From Metaphire vulgaris (taxonomy: Eukaryota; Annelida; Clitellata; Crassiclitellata; Megascolecidae): a stretch of 64,000 bases of DNA. Position 1 is the first letter of the stretch, and every line of letters starts with the position of its first letter. The notes under the pieces were generated by a model that saw nothing but the letters and a program-made list of their open reading frames with translations, did no database searches and was not told the DNA's origin. The DNA lies in the NCBI GenBank assembly GCA_018105865.1, contig CM030843.1:765001-829000 (forward strand). The letters are read 5' to 3'. Positions 1,333 through 61,521 of the stretch are shown here, piece by piece. The position numbers and the translations under genes were made by a program.

Positions 1333-3748
1333 CTAGCGAGTGGTCGTGTTAAACTGGAGGAAGTAGGCGGCGGTGGGATCGTTGGTGTAAACGTCTTTGT
1401 TCAGGTAGTCCTGGTGTTGCTGTTGTTCCATCGCCAGTCGTTTGTTCTCGTCTTCGAGCTGTTTGGCGATGGCCGCTCGGCGCCTTTCCTCCTCTCGCTC
1501 GAGGAGCAGGGCCGCCCTGGCCTGGGCCACCCGCATGCGGTCCCACTCCTCGTTGCGACGCCTCTCCTCCTCACGCAGTCTCTGTGCAATTATTGCAGTC
1601 AGTTAACGCATCGTTCGCTCGCCAGAGGGCGGACAGTCAAAAAAACAACAACAAGTATTAGCCTACCGGAAGGAAGCAGTCTGTCCCGGAGACAGAGGCA
1701 GACAGATAAATAGACAAACACTGAGACAGAGACGCAGGCAAGCACATAGACAAACAGACACACATAAAGGCAGACGCAGGTAAAGACACACACATACAGA
1801 CTGGACAAAGAACTGGGCACAAGAAGACTAAACCAACACTTCCGAAACATCGCATTCACATTAAGAGATAATTATAATTAAAAGATGCATAATTAATTAG
1901 GCCTAATGGATAATTAAAAGATAATTATATATATATATATATATATATACATAAGAGATGAATGAGTTACCAGATTTTCCCGGCGCTGTATTTCCTGTCG
2001 TCGGCGGATGTCCGCCAGTTGTTCCGGAGTCATTCCCTTCCATCGATCCGGAATGACCCGGTGGAATCCAAAGGCACTCTGGGCGGCCGCCGGATTTTCC
2101 GTCAGGAAGTCCCCGTACAGGAGGTTGGCCATTTCCGTCTTATTATCGTCCTCCTCCTGCTGCTTCCTCACACCGCTCTTCATCTGAAGCTCTCGTCTCT
2201 ATAAATGCAGCCAACAACGTATGTATGTACAGTAGAAATTCAATATAACGTACACTCTGTTACAGCCGCATACTCGTTTATAACGTACCGCAATGTACTG
2301 TCCCGTGTGATGCGCTATATCGTATTGGATGGTATTCGATCCAATCTTTTCTATCCTTACACTTCTATAGCGCCACTTCATGATGCACAGGAGCATCAGC
2401 CGATGGCATACTAAATCAAAATCATTAAAGATCCAGGTCAAATCCAGGGTATCCGGCCGGACAAACGGGTGACAGTCTATGATGGTGGATAAGCCAAAAG
2501 ATGGGCTTTAATCTTGTTCTAAACATCTCTAATGAATTTGCAATGCGCACATGAGGCAGAGGCGATGAGTTCCAGAGTTTGGGGCGCAGTCACTGAGAAA
2601 GCACGGGTACCTAGAACTGTTCAAGGATGGTATTGGATGTAACGTACCTCGGATATAACGTACTAAATTTTACAGACCCGCGCTAAGTACGTCATAACGA
2701 AGCTGCACTGTAATTGTCCTCTTACCTTGAAATGTGATCAGTTGTGGAGGGGGATGACTAGCTAGGCTATTGGAGTACTTGGAAGTCTTATAGTAGTTAA
2801 GTACCGCAGTCAGAACGTACCAGGGCCTGGTTGTAATCTTTCGTGGCGACGTTGATAGCGCGCCTGCATTCCTCTTCCGCTCTTTGCAGGTTGCAGGCCC
2901 TTTCGTCCATTTCCCGCATCTTCAGTTCGAACAGGTGGTCGGCTTTTCTCTGGTTGTCTTCCGCCTGCTGTCTCTCCTTCATCTGCTGCTCCGCCCAGAC
3001 GCGCCTCTGTTCCTGTTGGAACTTCGTTCTCGCCTAAGATCCAGAAATTCAAACGATCTTCAGAGCAGCTTCAAAGTTTCAAATTAAAACGTAAAACGTA
3101 AATAAAAGATTTTCCAACGGCAGTATTATTCACAGTTAAACGGATATGTGACCCGCTGGGAGAAAAGGTACACCAAAGTAGGGACAAAACAAATAACCTA
3201 TTTTTCGGTAAAAGTGTAGTAAAATTTTGGCCCTTTGTGTGAAATTCAGTCGAATGCCATTGATCTATGGTGGACCTTGTTGTTGAGGTCTTCTCCGTCG
3301 AATTTCTGGAGTCCGGATATGGAGCAACGGGGATCGTCGTCGCTGACTCTGGCCGGGCGGTCCTTCCGGAAGCGATCCGGATCGTAGAGGTCCCACTCCC
3401 TTCTCCCGGACGGCTGCTGGTGGAGCATCCGGAATTCGTTCTGCGCCCGATTCAGTTCCCGGATGTCGTGCTCCTGGCGCTGCTGGAGCAGCTCCGCTAT
3501 GTGGGCGTAGCGAACGGTATCGGCCTCTGGCGAATGAAACAGACATAGACGACATCGACGCATGCGACGAACGCCCTCTGGTGGCCAAAGTAACTGCATT
3601 CGAAGTACTGTACATATTCTTCTAGGTGTACGTAAGTATAATCATGTAAAATTAATATAGCGCTTTGGAGCCCTAACCCTAACCATACGTGCCATGCAAG
3701 TTGATTGCGTCGGTGATCATGGACCTCCATTTCCGTCTGTCTTCGAAG

Positions 3749-6019: not shown

Positions 6020-6387
6020 CAGAAAGCAAATAATTCTATGGAACGCTCTTTAGTAAGCGAGTTAGGCAGCATAGTTTCAACAGTCTCATAGTCTCTCTTT
6101 TCTAAACTCGGTTCTGAAAACCAGAAGACTTTTCCAGAAAGAAACCCTTTTACTCTCTTTATTCTTATTGCATCGTTACCGCCTTTGATGATTCTAGAAC
6201 TGAAATTCATGACGGTAATTGGAACCTATAAACTAGGATTAGGCCTAAGTCTACGCCATTCTTTGCACTATTTTAATCATTTTTCAAGAGTTCATCACTG
6301 CTATACTCACGCGTGTAGTTTTTCAATAGGATTTAGCATTGCACATTTTACATTGAGTCTTTTAAAAAGACTTCTACTAAATCTTAT

Positions 6388-6574
6388 CAGTGGCGGCTCT
6401 AGGATTTGGCAAGTGGGGGGCCGTTGGGGTGGCAACTTCTAATCATGGGGGGCCAACCATTTGTTGTTTAATGTATGTAGCATTAAGTATAGAGTCCCAA
6501 CTGGGGGGTTACTGGGAGGCAGGCACTCAATAGGGTGGCACAGGCCCCCTGGCCTCCCGGTGGAGCCGCCAATG
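6388..6574 (-). mobile_element. hAT-like MITE, copy 1
   Basis: 187 bp, starting CAGTGGCGGCTC and ending GAGCCGCCAATG (one mismatch from a perfect inverted repeat). It is flanked by AATCTTAT and AATCTTAC, an 8-bp target duplication with one difference. The interior carries AATGTATGTAGCATTAAGTA, shared with the copies at 18188 and 60776. An 8-bp duplication is the hallmark of hAT transposons. There is no transposase, so it is non-autonomous. Confidence 0.85.
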
Positions 6575-9170: not shown

Positions 9171-11182
<2,012 letters not shown>

Positions 11183-11995
11183 CTGACAATTTATATAGCC
11201 CAATGTAATGTACAGAAAAACAATTTGAAACCAAATAGCCATTAACTGTTCTTGGCAGATGCAGCGTACAAAGATAAAATGCCTTTGCGCAATAATAATT
11301 CTGTGGACGCGCTGAGCTAATGACGGTGTCCTGTGGCGGCCATCATTTGACGTCACTAAATCACTGGTGCAGTACCTGCATGGCTTCACGTATACGGCGC
11401 CGTGGCAGAAACGGACCAGCATTTGCAGCATCAATAAAAAGTTAGCGACGACCATGGAGCTCAGTCAGTCGGAGCCGCCGGGCGCTGTATAGGGGAGATT
11501 GCGCATCGGACGGTAGCGTGGGAGGGACACACCGCAGCACGGCGCCCAGATTGGTCGTTTTCTCCCACTCCGTGAGGTCCCCTAATAGACGCCGTATGAT
11601 TATTTCACGTCTCGTTTACGATCTGCACCCGCAGTTTGCCTGTCGATCGCATCGCTAAGTGGCAGAATCGTTTGTGCCATTACAACGGTAAGCGTTACAT
11701 GTAAAGCGTTACATGTAAACGTTATAGCCTGTCTGTTGATGACATTCTCTAGGTGTGTGCTGCGGGTGGGGGCGTGGGGACTCTGGGGATGGGAGCAAAG
11801 CATTAAATTTCTACAAATTTCCTGCCAAATGCCTTCCCCCGCGAGTTCTGCCCGCGGCTGCGCCAATGCGTTTAGGCCTACGGTAATTTATTTGACTGCT
11901 GCATCGGGCTATTGGTCTTTTTGAAATCTTTGTTGTTTGAAACTTAACAATAGGCGGTTAGGTAAGTAAGTGACTGATGAGTTGCTCTACTTCCA
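11183..11995. other. Upstream region of the neuropeptide gene
   Basis: Begins with a SINE-like remnant (11183-11215). The rest is unique, with a CpG-richer part at 11300-11580. The tract CTCTACTTCCAG ending at 11996 looks like a splice acceptor, so the signal-peptide exon may be preceded by a non-coding 5' exon somewhere in this stretch. No promoter motif can be fixed. Confidence 0.4.
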
Positions 11996-12005
11996 GACGC
12001 CGTCC

Positions 12006-13671
12006 ATGAGGCTGTGGTGGCTGCTGATCGTTATCTTGGATATTTGTTGTCGTCGATGCATTCGGGCAGATGTCAGCGCTGAAGAATTCGGTAAAAAAAT
12101 TCGTCTTACTTATTTTAGAATTCCGATATTCGGTTTAGGCAAGGGCGTAGCTACACATAGCCGCTCAAACGCAGCTGTAGGTCCCCTCCCCTACTGGGCT
12201 TGGTGGACATAGTCTTGAATCTGAAATTGATCTTTAAAATTATACAGTCTGACGTCTTTACTGTGCCACAAATGGTAAATTCTATTCAACAATTCAAATG
12301 CATAGGGGTAAACTTGGACGAAACAAAATGGGGGAGGGGGTGCATTACCCTTTCCCTAGCCTAGCTTTCACAGACTGATGCCTATTAGAAGATTACGTCT
12401 ATGAATTCAACTCTGCCAGAATTTGAAGGTTTTCCTGTAGAACAGATCCATTTGTCATTGTGCAACCGGTTACATTTCATACTCCGATGTGCCTTATGCC
12501 GACAATATAAATTTATCCTGACAGGTTCTGTGGACGGAGTTGATGGAGTTCTACTTCGGAACACGAAGAAGGATTCCGCCGGAGGAGGAGGAGGAGGAGG
12601 AGGAGGAGGAGGCAGGGTTCAACCGAGGCTCCTGGTCGCCGCCGTACCTCGTCGGAGACACGAAGACCTGTCCTACCTTCGCATCCCTCTGCGACTGTTC
12701 TCGCGATACGACGGAAAGCGGGATCGTATCTACATCGGTCGGAGACGGCAGAGCCGGACACAGGGGCCGACGGACGACTCCGGTCGAAGGAGGAGGAGGA
12801 GGAGAAATAGTCCCTTCGAAGGACGGGGGCAGACGGAGCAGAGATTCCAGGTACGAGATCCGAAGGACTGAACACGGGAGTAGTCGGTCGCCGGGAGAGA
12901 GGGTCGCTGCCGGAAGTTCCCGTTTCAGGATCATCGTTGATGGACATTCGGGCGAGGACGAGGTCGCTCCTGCTGCCGGAAATTTCCGTTGCAGGGGAAT
13001 GCGAGGGTCATCACAGCGACCCCACGTTTGCAGGAAAAGGAGTGCCGAGGCCGAACAACGCAGCGGCGGCCTATTCGTTACCGTGGAACCAAGACAGTGA
13101 CTACCCGGGCGATGAAACCATGCGATCCCGTTTAGAAGACGGATATCCGAAGACAATTGACGATAAAGACTTAGAAAGAACACGGTCTGACAAAAGAACA
13201 TTTCCCCCGATCGGTTTACCTGGCGTCAATGCAGACATCAGTGTAAAACAATTATTTTCCGATACAGGCAAAAGGAACATCGAGTCTGCTACGAAAAAAC
13301 GTGCACGTTCATTTATCGGTAAAAGAAATGATTTGGATTATGAGGACAAACGTTCACGTTCCTACATTGGAAGAAGAAATGATTTAGATTCTGGCTTTGA
13401 GGACAAACGCAGTCGTCCGTACATTGGACAAAGAAATGATTTGGACTATAAAGACAAACGCAGTCGTTCGTTCATTGGAAAAAGGAATGATATGGATTTT
13501 GAAGACAAACGTGGTCGATCATTCATCGGAAAAAGGAATGATTTGAATTCTGATCTTGAAGTCAAACGAGGTCGTTCGTTCAGTGGAAAGGGAGAGGAAT
13601 TAGAACTAAAGTACAGTGGTCCTCCCTTTGACGACGACGATGACGACAAAACGCTTAAATCTGCCAAATGA
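12006..13671 (+). CDS. Multi-copy amidated neuropeptide precursor (RSFI-amide type), family not recognised
   Basis: Exon 1 (12006-12090) encodes a signal peptide, MRLWWLLIVILDICC..., and ends at a GTAAAA donor. The main exon, open in one frame from about 12811 to the TGA at 13669, carries repeated cleavage cassettes: ARSFIG-KR, SRSYIG-RR, SRPYIG-QR, SRSFIG-KR, GRSFIG-KR and a degenerate GRSFSG-KG, separated by acidic spacers such as NDLDYED-KR. Glycine before a dibasic site is the standard signal for C-terminal amidation, so mature products would be pentapeptides such as SRSFI-amide. A longer candidate peptide starts TFPPIGLPG and ends QLFSDTG-KR. The splice path between 12090 and about 12930 is unresolved. 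The acceptor at 12524 opens a frame containing KR-DRIYIG-RR, but that frame must change before the main block, either by an intron from 12851 to about 13005 or by one missing base. I know no named family with this motif. Confidence 0.85.
12575..12611. repeat. (GGA)n tract in putative coding exon
   Basis: GGA triplet run that would encode polyglycine in the frame following the 12524 acceptor. A second short (AGG)n tract at about 12788-12805 lies where the reading frame appears to break. Confidence 0.85.
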
Positions 13672-14752: not shown

Positions 14753-15005
<253 letters not shown>

Positions 15006-35896: not shown

Positions 35897-36311
35897 TTTA
35901 ATTCGTTTCATCACTCTTCTCAATTTTTGCATATCTATAGCCTACTGTAGCACTAGTCCTTGCATTGTCCAATTTCAAACAGGGTATCAATTTTATAATA
36001 TTTTTGTGGTCTATAAAACCTGACAGAGAATAGATTTCTGAAAGACTTTGTATAGTGTCGTTTCAAATGGCTCATTATTTTTCGTGGCATTTAGAAAGCT
36101 CTAGAAAAAAATTGAGACTGAATATATTGACAATTCTAGTACAGTTTGGCACAGCAAAGACGGGGACACAAGAATATGTGGTTTTAATTCGTTTCATCAC
36201 TCTTCTGATTTTTTGCATATCCATAGCCTACTGTAGCACTAGTCTTTGCGTTGTCCAATTTGAAACAGGCCATGTTGGCCCACCCAATATTTGGCTTGTG
36301 GCACCCTCCAT
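35897..36311 (+). repeat. Dispersed repeat family A, copy 1
   Basis: Contains AATTCGTTTCATCACTCTTC, CTATAGCCTACTGTAGCACT, GGCACAGCAAAG and GCCATGTTGGCCCACCCAAT. The reverse-strand copy is at 58430-58897 and a partial copy lies inside the MITE at 50836-51262. Within each copy the ATCACTCTTCT...TAGCCTACTG module occurs twice. Confidence 0.8.
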
Positions 36312-36506
36312 GCAATAGTCATTGATAACTGAGCTTAGAAGATTCCCGTACAGGTTGCAGCGGTTCAGATAAAAATCTACTTGCTGATGTGACACTTTTA
36401 ATAGATATTGTGTGGTAAACAAAGACGGATCACTGTTTAATGTTATTGGTATCTTTAAAAGCACTCGTCTATGTAGAATTTTTTATTTTAAAATATTCAG
36501 GGTCCG

Positions 36507-42000: not shown

Positions 42001-45000
42001 GGAAACAGTCATTCAAGTGAGTGAATTCCCTTTCAAGGTTATGAAACCTTTATTAATGAAATTAATGTTACTATTTACGTTAATAAACCTCTTTGAAGTA
42101 CTGTACAGTTGGACTCACTCACTGACTTATGCAACATGCATACATGTTGGTGAGAACAAGTGTCATTTAATTTCACGTCGCCTCTCAAATGTTATCATGG
42201 TTTAAGTGAATGTGATCGAGATATGTCTATATATTATAGTGGGTTTGACTGATGAGGATCGACTGATGAGGATCTCATGATTTGATGATAATTTACCTTC
42301 ACCATTTCTTCAGGCACTACTGTCATGAGTTAATTGAAGGCATTGAAATATGATTTGTAGAAGTGATGATTTGATTGCAATGGCTGAGTGTGAAGGGTCA
42401 TCACTGGCCCTTGTTGGTCAAAGGAACCGTTCTCAAAACATAGCAGAAGGTCATGCAGGACTTGTTGAGGAGGGTGATGAAGAGGACAGCAATGGAGACA
42501 GTTTGCCTCAACTGGATGGACCGGCTGGACTTAGAAAACGTAGCGATCTTTAAATCTTTCAAATCTGTCTATCATTTCGCTTAATATGGACATGAGAATT
42601 ATGCAGCATTTCATTTGTTATGGGGGGAGGGGCGGTATTAGTGGGGTGAACCTGACCCTAGTGGAGATAAATTGGTTCTGACTTGTCTGACCCTTCACTG
42701 GAAGTCGAGAATTTTGAGGTGGGAATAATCTGACCTCGGTGTTTTTTTTTGAAAAATGAATCACTTCTAATTGTGAATATTATATATTTTGTTTCTGTAT
42801 ATCATTTATATCTATTTATTTATTTTGGTTATATAATTTAAAATTAACAGCCATCTGTCCAAAGCTATTTGATATTTGACTGTTTATGTTCAGTTTTGTT
42901 TGAGCACTGAGCTGTCTCTGGCATATTTTTTTTTTATCTAGGGCAGGGGTGGGTATTGAAATGGGGGCCGTGGCCAGATCTGGCCCACCAAGGGGTGTAA
43001 AATGGCCCACGAGAGTACTGAAAAGATTAATACCTTTTTATAACACTTTTCTAAAAAAATTTGATGTCTTGTTTTTAACTTTTTGTTTTACTAAGAACTA
43101 TATCCGCCTGGCCCTCGGACACCAGTGGTACAAAAATTTGGCCCTACATGAAATTTAATTGAATGTCCTGTATTTGCGTCTCAGGTCCCATTTGACAATA
43201 TGTAAAGTGCTCTTGATCTTGGCATGCTGTGACTATAGTGCTATATAAGTTGGCATATTATCTAACTAACTAATATATTTGGAATCTTTGTGTTAGTGAG
43301 ATCATCAAAGTTGACTGCCAGTGAGTCACCAGTTAATCTTCCAGACAATAACATTGTTATCGATACTTTCCAAGATGCAAATATTTGCACCAAAGAAACT
43401 CCTCTTGTGATGTCATCATCATCGGATGAATCAATTGATGACTCATCTTCAGTAAAAAGGGTACATTCTTCATCTTCAGAAAGAGGCAATAACTACAAAG
43501 CTGAAAATGCTTCTTGCAGAAATGCTGATGATCAAAACCAATCCAGAGATTGGAACATTTCAGAGCCAATGGAATGTAGGCAAAGTTTTGCACTTGACAA
43601 AGAGTTTGAAATTTCTTTGGATGCATTTAGGAGATCAGAACCCACTAAGAAAAGAAAACGAGAAAGTGGAGTCGATCGCATGTCATCAGGTAATGTTAGA
43701 AAATCATGTAGAAAAGCTTTAACGAGTGACAGCAGCGAGAATGAGTGCACGGCAGGTCAGCATCTTCTTGATTCTGGTTCCCTGATCGTGACAATGGCTC
43801 AGAGCGACAATGAGCTGGATACAGGTGCGAGACACGGCTGCGTTTTTAAGTCAAAAAGACTCCGATGCGGCAACACAGCTAATACGTGGAATACAAGAAA
43901 GAGATTCAAGCTGACAGGAGATCAGAAACGCTTGCTCAGATTTAAGGATGTTATAAAAGAAGCGCGTATTGTTGTAGAGAAGCTGCATTTAGGCGGTTCT
44001 AGTTTTCATTTGAATGAGATGAAGACAGCCACTGCTAAACGGATATATGGTTCACATTCCGTCGATAAGCTGGCTGCATCTGGTAATATTTCTGGCTCAA
44101 GTGAAAGCGATGAGGCTGTCGTGCCAAAAAGAGATTCATCGATCGATAAGGAGACGAACTCTACAAGCGACATCTCTACCAGTTGTCGATACACTGATTA
44201 TGTAGATGATGAATGTTCAGTTGATTATGCAGATGTGCTGACAAAGTTTGCGCTGTTGTCTTCTCCCGAGACCAGTGATCTTGAAAGTGAGGGTCCAATG
44301 CCAACTTCACCAACACAGGAACGCGGTTGTTGCTCAAATCGGTTGGATGAAGCTGTGGTCAGTAGAAAGGATTTAAAGTTCACAGTTACTGAGAAGCATC
44401 GTGATCATTTTACTTTTAATAAGGTCATTGGCTTGATGAACATTGAAAGTGAGGATGGTTCTAATGTTACTGTTTTTGAAGATGTTTCTCTATTAAGGCA
44501 TTCGTCGAGTGTTATGGACACTGAAAGCATTTCAAGCGAAGCAGCATTTGGTCTGGGCACTCGTTCTGTCGATCTGTTCAGTGAGTCTTCTAGAAGTGTT
44601 AGAAGTGTTTGTAGCACTGAAACCACGTCAGACGTTGGTGAGATCTGTTCCAAAACTGATGCGGACACCGTCGCCGCCGAAATGCCTACTATCGATTCTG
44701 AATTGACATCATCTCGTAATCGATCAAAGCTGGCTGATTGCATCAGTTCTGCTGCTTCTGGTGAGGGCAGATGTAATCATCTGAATGCAGAGTTCGACCA
44801 GATTGGTTTTAATGCAAAGCATTTGGTCGTGGTTCGACCTATGGTTGATCCACCGTCAAGAAGCCAAGTGTGGAGTGATGTGCTTTCAGATGGTTTCCCA
44901 CTGAAGAAACCTGGTGATGCGTTTTACAGCAACCCAGCCGACGTACCACCACGCCTACGGTAAGTGTCATTCACTGCACCAAGCTTCCGGGCAGTGCTAT

Positions 45001-48000
45001 AGAAATTTTGTCTTACTTAGTTATAAAAAACCTGAAAACTTACCATTCTTACATTTTCAGCATTTTACATCTCGAGACTTGTTATTTTTAGCAGAACTAT
45101 CCATTATTATTGATCAATTTCTGAGCTGCCTTTGGTTTCTTTTGTTTATGTTGATTCTATTTAAATATTGAATTTCTAAAATTGGCAAATTATATTAGAA
45201 TTATTTGTTTGTTTGGTTTTGTCTTCTGGGTTTATTAAATATTTTGCTGTTTCTTTTCAGAGTTTAATTTAAATTGTTTGATTTGTGCTGGTTTTTAATT
45301 GTTAATTCTGTTCTTTATTGTTGAAGAATTGGTGAAGCTGAGTTTCTGTCTAAAGTTAAATCTCCACTTGTAAGTATGCACTGTATGACGTCAAAAAAGA
45401 GATTTTTGCAGTTGTCGTTCATATTGCTGTTGTGCAGCTGTTATAGCACTATTAAACTTTTGTGCTGGTTCACTTTTTCAATCTAATTTGCCCTTTGAAT
45501 GTATTGTTTTTTAAGAAATGTTGGTTAGGGTCGAAGTTAAGTTTTTGATGTTACGTCAGTGGTTACCAAAATGTTGGCCGCAGCTCTCTGGGGAGCCCTG
45601 AATTGTTACAAGTCAATCAGAATTTCCTTTTTTTGCTTATTAAGACTTTTGGTACCAATTATTACCGGAAAAGTGTTTTGGCGCAAAGTTCATTTACTCG
45701 AATTTGACACGGGGAGCCTTGGGAAATCTGGACTTGGCAAGAGAGCTGTGTATTGAAAAGTTTGGTAGTCACTGTGCTAAGTTGTTGTCAGAGCTGTTTT
45801 GGGAGGGCTGATCCCAAAAGGATAAAATCAAATGATGGTCTGCAGGCATTCACTTTATCCATAAGATGATTTTGTAACTCTTTTGCTTATCAGTTTAACA
45901 TGCAGGAATGAAGTAGTGCACATTTAGCATGATTTTCTTGCCTCATTTCTTAAAGGATGAACTGGTATAAACTAAGATGACCTATGCTGGATGAAGTCTT
46001 TCTACTTGTTCCGGCTCTGATTTTCAAAGCAATTTCTGGCTTGTTTCTCCATTATTATCTATTTATCCATTTACTGGTGTAATGTATTGCAACATAGTGT
46101 TTATATAGCACTTCTACTGATGGCCAGAACGTTGAAAATCTTTTTTTGTTGTTAAGGTTTCCGATTTGCCCGAGCACGAAGTCAGCTGCGGATTAAAGTA
46201 TTGGCAGACGGAAGCAATGGCCCGAGACTTAGCAGTGTTCGGCCACTCGCAGATGACCAAGGACGACATACTGAAGCAATTCGGTGCACAGCCGTCGCTC
46301 TGCAGTGTCCTCATCAAGGACAAAGAGGTCGTAGTGACGCCCTGCAGGTCACCACCGCGACCTTCTGTCGTTCGGGAGTTTTTGAAAATGAGAGAGAAGA
46401 ACAGAAAGGGCGAAAATGCAGGAAAAGAGCAAACAATTACCGGTATATCAAGGGATGCGGAGGAAAAAGAGAAGGAGGAGGTGGAAGCTGTCACCATGGT
46501 GTCGACCAAACTGTCGGCGCAAAGTTCGTCTGGTGCTTGCACTGAGGATCTGAATGAAAATAAATGTTATAAAGAAGAAACAACTGTTGCTCCATTATCA
46601 CTTTTAAGTAATCAAGACAAAATTCCTAGACAAGAAGAAAGGCAAGATGAGACTAATCAGTCTGCCAGCAGCGACCTGTCACTGACGGCGGAAAATTCGA
46701 CCGCACAGAGCACCTGTTTGATGGGAATCCCGAAGGCCTCCTTCGTCGAACTGGAAATACCGGGCGTCGTGTGCAGAGACCGTGGGAAAGGTGGCGCAGA
46801 TTGCGATGAAACCAAGACGAATGACTCGGACGTCGTTGAATTTCCTGGAAGTCAGTTGAGACCATTCGGGGATCTTCCGGATTCTGGCGACCAACTGCCG
46901 GACGTTGCGGCCAGCACTCCGGTTCATGCGTCGGGTTTTGAGAGCGAACGGCTGAAATCGTTGGAACAGGATCTGCTCCGGTGCACGCCGATCCAGAACG
47001 CAGAAGAAAACTCGAGAGCGGATACTGTTCCAGACTCTACGACCTTATCTGATGCTGCAAACAATTTGAAAGCAGACGACGGCGAGGAACTCCGTTATCT
47101 ACGAGACAGAGACAGCGCCAGATAAAACCAAAGTTTGAGAGACAAACCTCGTCTTTCCGGAGAGATCTTCCTCTGTGTCGGATGGTACTCGTTTCGCTAC
47201 TTTGTTCCTTGATAATATTATCATTTATTTATTGTCATGTCAGAAATGGAAGCAAAATATTGCCTGCTTGTCAGATGAGATGAGACAGCAAATAGTGAAA
47301 TGATGTAAACTTTACAGATAGAGAAATCTGCTCAAAATCTCTAGATGATTAGCAACAGAATGTTCTTATTTAACCTTGAACATACTTGTTAAAAACAACA
47401 TGAGAAGGCTTGTGCTTCATTTGAATGCAGTATTCATTGTGCAGGAAGTTGATTGAAATCATTTTGTTTTGTTTTGTATAATTTGAATTTTTAAAACTTT
47501 CAAATGATGTATGGAAACGATGGACTTATGTTATAGATTTAGGATCTGTGATTTTTAGACTTTCTTGGCTGTTGATAGGGTCATGAACTGGCATTGTCTA
47601 CAACGAGAGAGCATTCTCAGATCGAAGGACCTACGCTTAGAAACACCTTTGGCTTCAAAGTTGATTCACAGAATGTACACGACGCGAAAGCTCTTTACGA
47701 CGTAAGATGTCAAATGGTTTTGTAACGTAACTTAATTCTAATTTTTACCTATAAATAAATAGTTAGTAACATAGCTTTTTTATATTATGTGTGTATATGT
47801 ATACATATATGTATATATCTGTACATTATTGAAATGTTAATTACAAGCACCTGTTAATATTTATGCAGTTGCCATTAATGTATGTTTTCTTACTAAGTTC
47901 TTATTATTATATTTGTGTATTGACAAGTATTTAACATTTTGTGACAGACCTGAATTTGTGTTATCTTTACGATACAGTTTCTTTGAAATTGTTATCTGTT

Positions 48001-48981
48001 TAGTACCAGTATTTGACCGTGCTTAGCGCCGAAGTACACGTGGCGACCAGAGGGGACCTTCTCCCCGATCCAGAATGTGATGAAATTCGTGCTATCTTCT
48101 ACTGCATACACTATGACTGTCCTCCACATGAGGCAATTGGACCGGCTTCCATCCTTATGTTATTTTGGTCGACAGACAGGACGTCCAGTGCGACGACCAG
48201 AGCAGACGACAGCCGCTGTTGCAGAAGTCGGGCCTGTCGGATGTTGATGTCACTTATGTTGCCACTGAAGACTTGTTGATGACGACTTTTGTGGAAGTAG
48301 TAAAGAGGTACAATTTGCACCATTTTATAAACTTTTAAAAGTTTTTCTTGACATATCCTACCTCATTTATTTGTATACAATTTTCATGCTCACATAACTT
48401 TAATTAAATAGGATAATAAGACTAAATTATGCTTAAAAATAAATTATCAATTTAGGGGTGTTAGTCTCAAATTGGGGGGTGTTGGAGGATGTTAGGGGTG
48501 CATCTCAGGCTCGGATTGGGGAAAATTTGGGGAGTGTCGGTCTCAAATTGGGGGGTGTTAGGGGGTGTAAAATATCCTCGATAAGTGAATGGTAAATAAG
48601 AGGGCAACAGTTGAAAGAGTATTCTATAATTTGTTCTTAGATGGTTATGAATTCAGTTATTATTAGTCTTTAGGTGTTTATGACCTTTTGACCTCCTTGA
48701 TTTGATTCATTGCTGCTGATGATGATGATGATTCTAGGCATGATGCAGATGTTTTGGTCGGGTTTGAGATTCAGAGGTCATCGTGGGGATATCTTCTGCA
48801 GAGAGCTGCACATCTGAACCGAGACCTCTGCTCACAATTGTCTCGCATTCCAGGTAATTCCAGTTATTGCTAATTTTAATTCCTCAATGAATCTATTGAA
48901 TTGTGAGCAAATCTGATCAGCCATTATTATAAACAAATCTTTGGTAAAACATTATTTGGTTCTGAAACTTAATCGCTCCTG

Positions 48982-49035
<54 letters not shown>

Positions 49036-49350
49036 GCAACGATGTTGCAGAATGTAATGTTAATAAACTGCCAATAGGACCATTGCAGTGTGAATTTGTT
49101 TGGTATTCTGGTATGTGTCTGTGTGTGTGTGTGTTTAGGTGGGAGTTTGGAGAACCACTTTGAAGCAGATAAAGACGAATATGGAGCGCATCACATGTCG
49201 GAGATTCACATTTCGGGTAGAATTGTTCTCAACCTTTGGAGATTAGCCAGGCACGAAGTGAGTCCAGAATTACTCATCCTAAAAACTGCTTAATTAATTA
49301 ATTATATGCGCATTTGCTGCTTTGCGATTATTTACACTCTAGAAATGCTC

Positions 49351-49391
<41 letters not shown>

Positions 49392-51717
49392 GGAAATTAT
49401 TGATTAGAAGGGTTTAATTAGTTGATTGATCAAGGTCGTTCTTCTGATGTACAGGTGACCTTGAACGTGTATTCATTTGAAAATGTTGCTTACCACGTAC
49501 TTCATCAGAGATTTCCAAAGTACTCCAACCGCAGTCTGACCGAATGGTTTGATCACAGAAGTCACCTCTATAGGTAAACTTTTGCTGTTGAAATGTTCTG
49601 AATCAGCACAACTAAGAGCCGATAGAGTCTTGAAAATATCGGGTAATGGATAGACTGAGATAGGATGTTCACAATTTAATCTTCAAGAGAGTCATTGCCT
49701 ATTAAATTGAACTCCTGTTTGAAATTGATGTCATGTGATTAACATACTTAAGAATTTTACATATTTCAGGCCCTGTTGTCTACTGCAGGTCTTCACTGAT
49801 TTTCACTGATGCACCACAATTACTATAGCTTGTGCAGTTAAAGTTCAAATTAGGTCTAAGTTTTTGGTATGGGCATTCTTTTGATTGGAGTATTTTGCTC
49901 TTTGTTCTCAGGTGGAAAACGGTTGAGTATTTTATGGTACGTTCAAAGGCTAACCTGCAGATTATAGAGAAGCTGGATCTTATCGGCCAGACGAGTGAAT
50001 TTGCCAGGATATATGGCATTGAATTCTACGATGTCTTGAACAGAGGTTCACAGGTGCGTGTTTTCCACTTATAATAAATATAAAAGCCAGCAAACTCTGC
50101 TTTCAACACAAATGTACCCAGAAAGATATGCTACTAAATAGACTACCAGTAATCTCTATGGTTAATTCATTTGAAAACAATGGTTGAGGAAATGAAAACC
50201 ATTAGCATTGACATTGTGTTTGTTAAACAGTTGAAAATTCAGCACCAAATAAAGTGCAAATATATTTAAGAGTTTGAGTAGAGAAAGGTGTCATATTTTT
50301 TAGAAGAAATCTTTGTCAAAATTTCACCCTCCTCTGAAAAAATCTTTGCTACACAATTATATGTATGTACACTGAACTATTTATATAGCACCATAAGCAG
50401 AGCATAACCAAACACAATGGCTCTTACATTTAGCATTTAAAAATAACTGGTAAAAGGACAGTTGACTGTCTTAGAGTTGACATTTTGCAGGTGGATTTGT
50501 ATTTCTGTTATTCTATGCCTTTGTCTATTATTACCATAGAGGTATATAACTATTATTGTCGTTATTGTGTTGCAGTATCGCGTTGAGTCTATGATGTTGC
50601 GCATGGCAAAGCCGTTGAATTTCATCGCCGTCAGTCCAAGCGTTCAGCAGAGGGCGCGAATGCGTGCGCCTGAGTGCATCCCGTTGAATTTGGAACCGGA
50701 ATCCGAGTTCTATACTCATCCGGTGATCGTTCTTGACTTTCAGTCTCTCTATCCGTCGATTATGATAGCCTACAACTACTGCTTCTCCACATGTCTCGGA
50801 CGAATTGACAACTTCCCAAAACTGCAGTCAGTATACAGTACTGCTAAAAAAATTGTGAACACACATGGATTTCGAAGCAAAAGCGTATTTTTTCTACTGT
50901 ATTTTTTCATTTATGATACTATTGAACGATTGATGTACAGAAGGCTATAGATATACAAAAATAGTTGACCATTTTTTGTGGCATTTCGAACGCTCTAGAA
51001 TACCATTGAGACCAAATATACTGATTATTCTAGTACAGTTTGACACAGCAAAGATGGGGACACAAGAAAATGTGCATGAAATTTGTTTCAACACTTCTGA
51101 ATTTTTGCATATCTATAGCTTTCTGTACATCAATCGTAGAATAGTATCATTAATGAAAAAATATAGCATTGGTGTTCTTGGTTGTGATTGCAATATTTTA
51201 ACAAGCCTTAAACTTCGTTTTGCTTCGAAATTCATGTGTTCACAATTTTTTGAGCAGCACTGTACTTTATAGACAACTGCCAAACTCGCTAATGTACATA
51301 TCTGATAAACGTGTAATTTGTTGAAGGATGGAGAGAGAGAGAGAGAGAGAGAGAGATTTTGTAATATGATATATTCAGGTGTTGAGTTTTAGTGAGTCAC
51401 TTATTTGTGCTGTGATTCATCTACGTGGTCAGGAGAAAGTGATTTAATGCTGTGAGGAAGTTTTAAAATTGACAGGTGATGTTGTTATGTGCTTGAAGCC
51501 CTTGGCAATGCATTTCATGCAGTTTGTTCTTGTTTATGTTCTTGACTCTGTCATCAGTACTAGAAGCCATTGCTTTGGAGCAATTTTATTGATGTCTTTA
51601 TTGTCACATTTTCAAATATGGTGTTTTGGTGTAGCTGTATATTGTGTAAATCTTTTTAGAGACCGTTTGTTTACATTTTTCGTCAAGTTGTCAGACATTT
51701 GTTAATTTATTAATTAC

Positions 51718-56790: not shown

Positions 56791-58429
56791 ACATCAAACA
56801 ATTATAACAATAAGTGTAGTTTAATTGCTCATCAGACTTTCGTGAGTAGGGGGGTTGTGATCCCACCCAGTTTTATTTTCCTAGAACCACTACTGTGTGA
56901 TGGTTGCCATTCAACGTGTGCCTTGTGATGATCATTTGATCATTCGATCAACGATCGCTTGCCTTTGAGCATTTTGCTGTGGTTTTCTAATGAGCTACTG
57001 GCTTTTTAAAGTTACAGGGTGTTGTATCGTTGAATATTTTAATGAGGAACTGGCTTGAGACAGTTTTTGATGTGATTTGACGACTGCACAAAGGTCGAGA
57101 TTGTTTATGATTTGTAGGCCTTCAGTGAGATCTGACTTTCCATAGACCTGTGGCTTCACTGAACCATCTAACTATCAATCATTGTATTAAAAAACATTCA
57201 ACGTTTTTGTAAAATTGTGCAATAGCACTGTGCTCTTCATGCTATTTATAATATTATTATTGTTATGCTATTATTAAATCTGATGACAGTTGTTTTGGTC
57301 ATTGTTTCACTGTTATTGGCAAATCATGAAGTGTTTTGTGCTGTGATATATGATGTTAAATGATTGAATGTATCAATGCATGTTTAATAGAATCGAACTG
57401 ATTGAAAATGTAAATTATATTTGTTTAAATGTGACTATAAGTGTATGTGGTCTTGTGATATTTCTTCAGATAACTTAATTTGATATCTGGAATGCTGAAG
57501 TACCAGTACTCTATGCATTTACTGGAAGTTTGTATGAACTGCAGCCTAAGTTTTGTTTATTTTTTCAAATTAGTACAAGGGATGGATGAACATAGTTTCA
57601 AAAAGAGATTATGCATTTAGCATTATGTTTAGTTTTATTTTTGCAAGACATTTGCAAAGTCATAGATGTCATTTAGAGATATTAAATTGCAAAGGTCCAA
57701 TCTTGTAATTTCTTCACTGTGTTATTATAATTGCAAAATCTGTCCATATGTTGAGTCTTTTGAATGTGTGTGTGTGTGTGTGTGTGTGTGTCTTTATCCT
57801 TATTTGAGGAAGGAAATGTGAGCAATATGAATTAGATTATGTCGAATATAGAAATCAGCTAAAGGGAGAGAAACAACAATAGTGCACTTCTATAGCGCCA
57901 TTTATGATAGCCAAAGGTATCTACCGATGATATGCAAAATCCATCTCCAGGTGATCAGGTGACTTCCAAATGTAATTCATCGCAAGACTACAAGATATTC
58001 ACATTGTCAGCATTGCATGGCCTCAAACAGAGTTTAGTCTCATCCACCTTGCCTCAGGTAATGCTGCAGGTATTTTCATCACGGTGGTCGGTCGTTGAAT
58101 GCCGGTATTTGGCATAATTTGATACGGATGAGTGGTTGTTCCATTGCAGCTCTCCGCCTCCTCAGCATCCTTCCATTCCATTATGATTGTCATTGCTACC
58201 TGTCATTGATGTACTACTGTATTATAGCTGGTGATAACAATAACTGAACATAAATTCATATTTATTTTTACTATGATTCAACATCTGTTGTTGGTCCTAT
58301 TTTCAGGTGAGTCTGTCCAGTTGGATTTGATTTCTTTTCAGTAGTTTGTCACTAATTAAATCATTCTGTTCTCTATTCCTAGTTAAGTTATTTATTATCA
58401 CGTGCTCAGGTATATTTTTACACCCCATA
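56791..58429. other. REV3L 3' flank and intergenic
   Basis: No further exon. ATTAAA variants occur near 57185, but a canonical poly(A) signal close to the stop was not seen. A (GT)n run lies at 57767-57790, and TTCTATAGCGCCATTTATGA at 57890 is another family C-like start. Confidence 0.4.
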
Positions 58430-58897
58430 ACACCCTCCCAACACCCCACATTTGAGACCGACACCCCCCAAATCCCCCCAATCATGGAGGGCGCCACAAG
58501 CCAAATATTGGGTGGGCCAACATGGCCTGTTTGAAATTGGACAAAGCAAGGAGTAGTACTACAGTAGGCTATAGATATGCAACAATTCAGAAGAGTGATG
58601 CAACGAATTAAAACCACATATTCCTGTGTCCCCATCTTTGCTGTGTCAAACCGTACTAGAATTGTCAATATATTCTGTCTCAATTTTTTTCTAGAGCTTT
58701 AGAAATGCCACGAAAAATAATGAGCCATTTGAAACGACACTATACAAAGTCTTTCAGAAATATATTCTCTGTCAGGTTTTATAGACCACAAAAATATTAT
58801 GAAATTGATACCCTGTTTGAAATTGGACAATGCTAGTGCTACAGTAGGCTATAGATATGCAAAAATTCAGAAGAGTGATGAAACGAATTAAAAGGCC
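58430..58897 (-). repeat. Dispersed repeat family A, copy 2
   Basis: Reverse-strand counterpart of 35897-36311: AAGCCAAATATTGGGTGGGC, AACATGGCCTGTTTGAAATT and TAGGCTATAGATATGCAA appear in mirrored order. It continues into a C-rich CACCCCATAACACCC segment that matches the G-rich pieces at 18360-18535 and 48445-48590. Confidence 0.8.
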
Positions 58898-59065
58898 CCA
58901 ATCTCAGCTAGACCTTTGTTTTTGCTTGTCAGACTTTTTTGGCGGGGACCCCCAGAATTTACCGACCCCCTTCCCAAATTGATAATCCTATAGAAATAAC
59001 TGCACGCGCTGTAAATACTGATCCTGATTTTCAGTTGCTTTTTGGGCTAAGATTTCTTGTTTTAG

Positions 59066-61521
59066 AGTTCTTGCTAATTCCCGGGACCGTCAAACAGTGT
59101 CCTCTGGAATCTCAGTATTCCTACAACGGGAACGGCAGCTGTCTCCTCTGTCCGCCGTCGTGCACTGGTTGCCTTGAAACGGTCGACGATGTTAACTATC
59201 CGTGCATCGGTTGTCAGAATGGATACGGTTACGTTGCCAACGGAGATGCGTTGTCTTTTGGCGGAGCGTGTCAAGATTGCGTGTCGTCGTCGTCGCTGAT
59301 TTCGTACGGCAGCACTCGGCTGCAGCTGTGGTCTGCTGCCTCCGGGAATTCTGCTTCTCTCGAAGGCCAGTTGAGGGTTAACTATCGCGGGACCTGGTGG
59401 TCGGTGTGCGACGACGGTTGGACGGCCACCAACACGGACGTCGTCTGCGGAGAACTGGGTCTCGGTCGAGGCATCGCGTTCTTCTCGCGCTACGGCCTGC
59501 TGAAGCCGAACCTGCCCTTGATTCCGATCGGGTTTGATGACGTCAGTTGCGGCGCAGGCGACCGATCTTTCTTCCTCTGCAACCGCTCGGACTTCGGCCG
59601 CCACGACTGCGAAGACTTCGAAAGTGTCGGGATCCTGTGCTCTGGACCCAGCGTCGGTCGACGCTGCCTGGTCAGCTGTCCTCTCGGTCAGTTTGCTCTC
59701 AACGGAAGCGTCTGCGTGGACTGTCCCCTGTTCGGCTGCCTTGCCTGCAGTGGATCGGCCGGTCGGCGGTGTTCCCGGTGCGAGCAGGGTCTGTGGGTGA
59801 GTGAAAACGACACCTGCGTCGATACCTGTTCGTCCGGTCACCGTGGCAACACGAGCAGCGGTGCGTGCGAGCCGTGTGACGTCAGGTGCAGGGAATGCGA
59901 GGACGGTGGTCCGTCGAGCGACGGCGCCTGCGTCGTCTGTGCAGACGGTCTGCTGTTGCACGAGAAGCAGTGCATCGGTCGTTGTCCTTCGGGAACCTTC
60001 TTTTCTTCCCTCGCGAGCACCTCGAGCGCCTCATCGCAGAACATCTGCGTGGACCGCTGCCCGCGCGGCTTTTACGAATCCTCAGCTGGCAACTGTAGCA
60101 GCTGCCTTCCCGAGTGTATTAGCTGTTCCGTTTTCAGCGACAATTGTACGAGCTGTGCGACCGGGATGGTTCTGGCGACATCAGCCTCCTCCCCCTCCCC
60201 CTCTTCCCCCTCTTCTTCTTTTTCTTCTTTTGCCAACAACAGGTCGTCGTCTTCGTCGTCATCATCATCATCATCATCGTGCAGGCACAGGTGTCAGGAC
60301 GGTTACTCTCCAGATGCGAGAAACATCTGTCGGCGTTGCTCGAATGCTGACTGCGCGAATTGCTACTTGGGTGGCGATTTCTGCTCGGAGTGCAAGCGTC
60401 CCTACGTTCTTCAGGCCGGTCTCTGCGTAACCAGTTGCGGCGCGGGATATTTTCTCGTCTCGGGGGCCTGTCGTCCCTCTTGCCCCAAGGGATTCTACGG
60501 TGATTTCGCGACGACGACGGCGGCGGCGGTCTGTCGGCCGTGCCCGTCGTTTTGTTCCGACTGTTATTCCGCCCAGCGCTGCTCCATTTGCCAGAGCGGG
60601 TTCTTCCTTAGGGACGGACAGTGTGTGGGAGACTGCGGCCAGGACATGATTGCCATCAGCAGCCGCACTGTTGCGTCGAACGTGAGGGTGACTGGTGCCG
60701 TCAATCCTTTGGATGGACGCGTTGAGCTGTACAGCAATGGTAAGCACCATATTTGCAGCAGAACTTCGTTATAGCCAGTGGCGGCTCCACCGGGGGGTCA
60801 GGGGGGCCCGTGCCCCCTATTGAGAGCCTGCCCCCCCAGTGGCCCCCCCCAGTTGGGACCTTATACTTAATGCTACATACATTAAACAACAAATGGTTGG
60901 CCCCCCATGATTAGAAGTTGCCCCCAACGGCCCCCCACTTGCCAAATCCTAGAGCCGCCACTGGTTATAGCCCATGGGCATTCAAAGAAATTTTTCCAGG
61001 GGTGGGTGCAAAACAAGATCTTGTGGCAAAAGAAATGAAAAAATTTTCCAGGGGGTGCAAAACAAGGTTTTGTGACGAAAGAAACAAGCAATTTCACTTT
61101 TTTCATGACTCCACAATTTTTCCAGGGGGTGCAATTGCACCCCCTCCAGACGCCCATGTTATAGCCTACTTAATGTTCTCCCATTTAAATGAGCACAAAC
61201 TGGTTTACAAGGTCATGAAATTGCAGCAGAGAAAATATGGAAAGTTTCAAAGGTTTCGATTTCATTCAACAAATAGTAAGGTGTGGGTCCGGTTGAACCC
61301 ATGAGGGGTGGGTCACGGAAGACTAAACATGTCATTGATGCTATATGCTTTTTAGCAGAAAGATCTCTGTCTCTATATTTATGCATATAATATTCAGGTT
61401 TATGGGGTCAATTGTGTGCGCTGGACTCGTGGACCATGAATGAAGCACAGGTTGTGTGTCATCAGCTGGACCTTGGTAATGCCCTAATGGTAGGCATGAA
61501 ACTTTTGTTCTTACACAGTCA

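Follow-up and report, generated by a model that had tools for sequence, protein, structure and literature searches.

The window, that is, the whole 64-kb stretch of DNA analyzed here (GC content 40.6%, zero N), contains on its plus strand a putative neuropeptide precursor gene with a short signal-peptide exon and a long repeat-bearing exon (Table 1). Within one open frame, from 13303 to 13593, six cassettes of the form x-R-[SP]-[FY]-[IS]-G alternate with acidic spacers of the NDLDYED type. A sequence-only reading of this DNA had named the same six cassettes and NDLD-type spacers, and all of them were found. The Gly-dibasic signal is complete in four of the six cassettes, as well as in a cassette DRIYIG-RR elsewhere in the window. 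The two remaining ones, SRPYIG-QR and GRSFSG-KG, lack this signal and, judging from the motif, should not yield simple amidated peptides. Translated in all six frames, the window has six matches to the pattern [KR][KR]xRx[FY]IG[KRQ][KR], five of them in the array (GRSFSG-KG being left out) and one at KRDRIYIGRR, and the pattern was absent from all 60 windows simulated with an order-1 Markov model.

Table 1. Features of the predicted window gene and two further precursor genes of the same genome (window positions unless a contig is given).
Feature	Position	Strand	Remarks
Signal-peptide exon, coding part	12006-12090	+	MRLWWLLIVILDICCRRCIRADVSAEEF plus 1 nt, phase 1
Second coding exon, first part	12525-12829	+	frame %3=2, joined to exon 1 in phase 1
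Seventh cassette, KR-DRIYIG-RR	12716-12745	+	frame %3=2; predicted DRIYI-amide
Array ORF	12811-13668	+	stop TGA 13669-13671; 286 codons open, frame %3=1
Frame-change interval, %3=2 to %3=1	12825-12871	+	GGGGG run 12825-12829; frame-2 stop 12869-12871
Rest of exon	12830-13671	+	frame %3=1, TGA 13669-13671
KR-TFPPIG-LPG	13192-13224	+	degenerate cassette, frame %3=1, before the array
ARSFIG-KR	13303-13326	+	sequence and ORF reading
SRSYIG-RR	13354-13377	+	sequence and ORF reading
SRPYIG-QR	13411-13434	+	no dibasic site after Gly; probably not amidated
SRSFIG-KR	13462-13485	+	sequence and ORF reading
GRSFIG-KR	13513-13536	+	sequence and ORF reading
GRSFSG-KG	13570-13593	+	last copy, degenerate
AATAAA	13737-13742	+	likely polyadenylation signal
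C16 sister precursor gene	G000:C16:3847013-3850264		701 aa as modelled, 23 cassettes
FV-amide precursor, C10	G000:C10:3126167-3129397, about 1083-1863 within		Gly-dibasic cassettes

A 51-bp tandem repeat was called by TRF from 13306 to 13553, which would suit a minisatellite with a unit of about 51 bp and a fortuitous open frame. However, the motif is missing from the simulations, another large contig carries a homologue that likewise has two exons and encodes a signal peptide (see below), and the copies differ from each other by more silent than replacement changes per site: a codon comparison of the six array units, which are not independent copies, gave a pS of 0.548, a pN of 0.161, and a dN/dS of 0.18. 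A chance or repeat artefact is therefore very improbable, and we regard this explanation as in the main already refuted. At an E value of 0.001, Pfam assigned no family to the two window ORFs of the gene; Rfam at the gathering threshold and a tRNA scan gave no matches, and in a viral-sequence scan four stretches fitted a pattern, none of them with a relative.

Several other features are found in the window. The minus strand carries exons of the gene for a ciliary microtubule protein of the RIB43A type (1917-2198 and 3249-3641; Pfam PF05914), with the PDB chain 8snb as the best match (119.5 vs. 61.7 bits for the next chain, and 87.6 vs. 72.5 bits). We take this chain to be sea urchin-derived; a RIB43A chain from a spiralian is not known to us from the PDB. 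An echinoderm origin of the DNA, considered because of this best match, was dropped without having been disproved; the neuropeptide set described below speaks for lophotrochozoans. On the plus strand, the region 43266-50947 contains an exon, at 50540, that matches the catalytic subunit of DNA polymerase zeta (REV3L), and two large ORFs, starting at 43266 and 46136, for which Pfam gave no match, are probably middle exons of the same gene. A further plus-strand ORF of 620 aa (58912-60771) encodes an SRCR domain and furin-like cysteine-rich repeats. In addition, there are very long trinucleotide microsatellites at 14757-14985 and 10795-11186, and two dispersed repeats, one with GGSRIWQVGGRWG shared by the ORFs 6092-6439 (plus) and 60885-61169 (minus), the other with GHVGPPNIWLVAPSM shared by the ORFs 36034-36315 (plus) and 58306-58698 (minus).

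The window is C12:765001-829000 of an assembly of 728,303,522 bases in 246 contigs. Of 61 contigs with sampled lengths, the 23 from C1-C41 measure at least 11.0 Mb and the 38 from C42 onward at most 0.80 Mb, which suggests about 41 chromosomes; contigs of low G+C content proved to consist of runs of N. A search of this assembly with the 183-residue C-terminal part of the window gene yielded 11 matches, namely, the query itself, six pieces on contig C16, and four weak matches (E 0.06-5.9). The six C16 pieces, located between 3848513 and 3849760, are 53-73% identical to the query (E 3.9e-25 to 1.9e-5), and all of them lie within one open frame of 693 codons. The spliced model of this sister gene, with splice sites chosen by eye, encodes a protein of 701 aa that starts with an MRLW... 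signal peptide and is interrupted by one phase-1 intron with the donor GTAAGA, so that in the model the signal peptide and the peptides share one reading frame. The 23 cassettes comprise 21 copies of ARSFIG-KR, one of SRSFIG-KR, and one of TRPYIG-KR, all ending in G-KR; GRRSYIGRR and KRDRVSVGRR are found upstream of the counted cassettes, and a GRSFI-amide is absent from the encoded peptides. Codon comparison of the 23 units, again not independent copies, resulted in a dN/dS of 0.07. For this precursor, the rows returned by Pfam were weak (E up to 1). The C16 gene is probably the main RSFI-amide gene of the animal. The existence of this 23-cassette paralogue, with a signal peptide and one intron, strongly indicates that the window gene, too, is of the neuropeptide precursor kind. 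To this extent, the earlier proposal that the gene yields several RSFI- or RSYI-amides holds, in that a multi-copy precursor of amidated peptides is supported; given a frame change and weakened cassettes (see below), the window copy itself may or may not yield the peptides.

The comparison with the sister gene also clarified the upstream part of the window gene. The signal-peptide exon had been noted before as part of the region 13300-13671; it is indeed present, but more than a kilobase upstream. Its similarity to the C16 signal exon (local score 43) was reached by none of 1000 shuffles. It has a hydropathy core, followed by charged residues; a splice-acceptor-like AG ends at 11996, just upstream of the ATG, and the donor, GTAAAA from 12091, is weak. 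In a tblastn search with the first 265 residues of the paralogue (composition correction and masking off), its residues 77-126 matched 12668-12829 with an E value of 1e-10 and 48% identity. None of 1000 shuffles scored as high as this match in frame %3=2, whereas the other two frames were shuffle-like (764 and 181 of 1000). This part contains the seventh cassette, which aligns with KRDRVSVGRR of the paralogue; the KR-DRIYIG-RR motif did not occur in any of 20000 local Markov simulations of 12525-12850 in the three forward frames. The acceptor at 12525 would lead from exon 1 into the frame of this cassette. The C16 paralogue supports all three of these parts of the gene model, i.e., the signal exon, the intron in phase 1, and the additional cassette. 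The similarity between C16 and the window ORF upstream of the array was marginal (the score was reached by 49 of 1000 shuffles). A codon-usage profile trained on the other ORFs of the window was positive for all three frames in the G+C-rich region 12530-12800, highest for %3=0, and favored %3=1 from about 12890 onward. It gave no preference to frame %3=2 in 12530-12800, which counts against the reading of this part in frame 2.

The homology to C16 thus implies that the signal exon and 12525-12829 are in one frame and the array in another. Signal exon and array, which had been thought to belong together, are accordingly in different frames in the assembly if the splice acceptor used by the paralogue is used. 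The homology in frame 2 stops at 12829, where C16 has a single open exon, and the change near this position may represent a sequencing indel, a real lesion, or an unconserved splice. In the frame-change interval, no in-phase pair of donor and acceptor reached a usable score with the simple, self-written generic matrices that were applied, which are crude. An in-frame intron was rejected: the only donor with a good score (4.0), at 12850, is in phase 0, all four phase-0 acceptors available to it score -8.7 or worse, and of the donors in phase 1, the one at 12782 has a score of -5.7 and the one at 12809 a score of -8.0. Programmed frameshifting was considered and found no support. Alternatively, exon 1 could be spliced directly to an acceptor in the frame of the array, skipping the frame-2 part. 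Four acceptors, with exon starts at 12929, 12995, 13034, and 13268, are in phase 1 and would each join exon 1 to the array frame in an open precursor, and the last one scores 3.7, higher than the other three and than 12525 (2.0). However, the open exon of C16 needs no such splice, and these AGs sit within coding-like sequence, where AGs of the same phase are common, so that we consider direct splicing unlikely.

The other two explanations concern the state of the gene. In the case of an intact, functional window gene, the change of frame would be an assembly indel, for example in the run of five G residues, and the signal peptide, DRIYI, and the array would be in one frame. The homology to C16 ends exactly at the G run, where the C16 exon is uninterrupted; the dN/dS of the array units is low; and the FV-amide precursor on contig C10 likewise changes frame in a G+C-rich stretch, which hints at indels in such regions. 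On the other hand, no frame change interrupts the window's other long ORFs, three in number (565, 329, and 620 aa), and the degenerate cassettes and the weak donor still speak against an intact gene. We lean slightly towards an intact gene, while giving it a little less than an even chance. If, instead, the frame change exists in the animal itself and the signal peptide is no longer followed by the array in the translated product, the window copy would be a decaying paralogue. Several observations are in line with decay, i.e., the frame change itself, the QR and KG cassettes, the TFPPIG-LPG remnant, the charged residues after the signal core, the higher dN/dS than in C16 (0.18 vs. 0.07), and splice sites that are weaker than those of C16. 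With the same crude matrix, the window and C16 scores are -0.4 vs. 5.7 for the exon-1 donor, 2.0 vs. 4.3 for the exon-2 acceptor, and 1.8 vs. 8.3 for the acceptor before the ATG. Nevertheless, four of the cassettes are flawless, the array still has an ORF of 286 open codons, and constraint persists in its codon pattern, which makes decay somewhat doubtful. As the QR and KG cassettes should not give amidated peptides, the copy may be diverged or decaying, although we slightly prefer an intact gene.

It is quite probable that a neuropeptide precursor gene of the multi-copy type is present at this locus as a paralogous copy, and that its peptides belong, by their motif, with the F[V/L/I]amides of lophotrochozoans. 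The signal-peptide exon would be spliced in phase 1 to the long exon with its xR[SP][FY]I-Gly-dibasic cassettes and acidic spacers, and the signal peptide would direct the precursor into the regulated secretory pathway. There, prohormone convertases would cleave at KR and RR, a carboxypeptidase would take off the basic residues, and PAM would convert the exposed Gly to a C-terminal amide. The predicted products are ARSFI-, SRSYI-, SRSFI-, and GRSFI-amide, together with DRIYI-amide from the other frame, and they would act via G-protein-coupled receptors. The window copy, with its change of frame and its weakened cassettes, would be a less strong candidate for the main source of the peptides than the C16 gene. 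Concrete peptide sequences and masses are now available, with computed [M+H]+ values of 592.357 for ARSFI-NH2, 608.351 for SRSFI-NH2, 578.341 for GRSFI-NH2, 624.346 for SRSYI-NH2, and 678.393 for DRIYI-NH2. However, in the assembled window copy taken by itself, the signal peptide and the array do not share a frame.

Further precursor genes of the genome bear on the class of peptides and on the host. The best further match to the window query (E 0.06) is the FV-amide precursor on contig C10, in which cassettes with SRLFVG, SRMFVG, NHLFVG, GSPRFVG, and PAPGFVG, followed by dibasic sites, lie downstream of a phase-1 acceptor. The gene is read in two frames, with the change near 1360-1480 of G000:C10:3126167-3129397. 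A genome search with its ORF resulted in seven rows, two for the ORF itself, three for C16 (best E 1.7e-4), one for the window (E 0.19, not significant), and one for C6 (E 4.1); Pfam gave no rows for this ORF. Two further matches to the motif pattern in the genome did not have the appearance of related genes. Another precursor (G000:C38:7493319-7496549, 637-2208) contains a long array of AVSMLRM-Gly-Arg cassettes and presumably resembles myomodulin; Pfam returned weak rows with E values of up to 1 for it, and MbeB_N, which passed the cut-off, was taken as a repeat artefact. Similarity over whole precursors was rejected as evidence of family membership. Against C16, the MLRM-amide precursor scored higher than the FV-amide precursor (387 vs. 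178), and therefore such scores reflect the shared architecture of KR sites and acidic stretches and the copy number, and are no proof of the family. On the minus strand of G000:C2:22859740-22862982, an ORF encoding NRFLG-KR, NNFLG-KR, and NTFLG-KR, preceded by a stretch that contains cysteine, is possibly an FL-amide precursor. The GSPRFV-, PAPGFV-, and MLRM-amide precursors point to a lophotrochozoan host, and because APGW-Gly-basic codons had no match in the genome, a conchiferan mollusc is less likely.

The window gene is probably a new member of a peptide class that is already known, an assignment that is tentative and is made on the peptide motif. The RSFI-amides of the window and of C16 fit the pattern xRxF[V/L/I], as do the SRLFV and SRMFV peptides of C10, and taking this pattern as family-defining is our own, tentative reading. 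A C-terminal F-[V/L/I] is found in ARSFI, SRSFI, and GRSFI as well as in 22 of the 23 C16 cassettes, but not in SRSYI, SRPYI, and DRIYI, which end in Y-I, or in GRSFS. The gene had at first been attributed to an apparently undescribed family. What remains of this view is that the RSFI and RSYI strings were not found in the open neuropeptide literature searched: for RSFIamide, RSFIG, RSYIG, and related strings, no neuropeptide paper was among the matches listed from 5.39 million open papers, papers on starfish, ophiuroids, and crinoids lack the strings tried in their main text, and in a fourth echinoderm paper FVamide and Iamide were the only strings sought. The exact RSFI motif may stand in a supplementary table, and we keep claims of novelty modest. 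A truly new family, similar to the F[V/L/I]amides in its RSF-I-amide end by convergence, would also be compatible with the caution, voiced in a passage of PMC6188537, that short peptides converge easily, with the lack of the Pro of PxFVamides, with the Y-I end of two peptides, and with precursor-wide scores that do not link C16 specifically to the FV-amide precursor. However, xRxF[V/L/I]-amides, including one with an -FI-amide end, have already been described in a passage of PMC5996578, and SRLFV-amide, encoded in the same genome along with NHLFV- and GSPRFV-amide, differs from SRSFI-amide at two positions. A new family is thus distinctly unlikely, and the attribution to the known class is retained.

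Among known systems, SALMFamides, FMRFamides, TRH-like peptides, and luqins share amidation with the peptides described here, and some of them are multi-copy, but their C-terminal motifs are different (LxF or FxF, RF, short pQ peptides, and RW, respectively). That no match to these families had been recognized in the sequence-only reading was borne out for SALMFamides, the LxF/FxF-amide end of which (as given in a passage of PMC3594158) does not occur in the window cassettes, all ending in Ile except for one in Ser, and for FMRFamides, as no window cassette has an RF-amide C-terminus. The array part of the ORF contains no cysteine and is not of the peptide type defined in a passage of PMC4772807. 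Mytilus inhibitory peptides, PxFVamides, and PRQFVamide resemble the RSFI peptides in their repetitive precursors and F-V amide end, and the C10 gene encodes a GSPRFV-amide. However, the RSFI peptides lack the Pro-x-Phe core, SRPYI has a Pro but ends in Y-I, and PxFVG is present in no window or C16 cassette. PxFVamides are described for molluscs and two xenacoelomorph species (passages of PMC6188537), and MIP-related PRFV-amides were detected in a nudibranch by mass spectrometry (passages of PMC8735849).

The F[V/L/I]amide group as a whole is described as ubiquitous in lophotrochozoans and possibly mixed in origin (PMC8557429, in the passages on this group), and it includes AHRFVamide and AKYFLamide of Platynereis and the peptides of three FVamide precursors of Lottia (passages of PMC3503879). 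Common features are short F-V/L/I amides with a basic residue three or four positions from the end (passages of PMC8557429 and PMC3503879). The annelid FL-amide has a known G-protein-coupled receptor, and the grouping may mix unrelated peptides (PMC8557429, same passages). It is conceivable, though rather doubtful, that the two precursor genes, which are unlinked and one of which has 23 near-identical cassettes, form a lineage-expanded RSFI/RSYI-amide system with a receptor of its own, separate from the FV- and FL-amide receptors. If so, this system would bear on whether F[V/L/I]amides have a second type of receptor, a question left open in that part of PMC8557429. Two paralogous RSFI precursors and an FV-amide precursor in one genome are a natural set for deorphanizing F[V/L/I]amide receptors, which are little understood.

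A close likeness is to the LRNFVamide precursor of the scallop Patinopecten, for which nine peptides are listed in a passage of PMC5996578. Three of these deviate (SRELV, RYYFL, and FARHFL), and two thirds, namely, LRHFI, GRYFV, ARYFL, YRYFL, RRFFL, and MRYFL (6 of 9), are xRxF[V/L/I]-amide pentapeptides. In the peptides described here, in contrast, the third residue is Ser (or Pro) and two peptides end in Y-I, and the C16 copies are far more uniform, with 21 of 23 being identical. At the level of the peptides, on which the comparison was made, both systems have amidated xRxF[V/L/I]-NH2 pentapeptides, and LRHFIamide ends in -FI-amide, as does RSFI-amide (PMC5996578, same passage).
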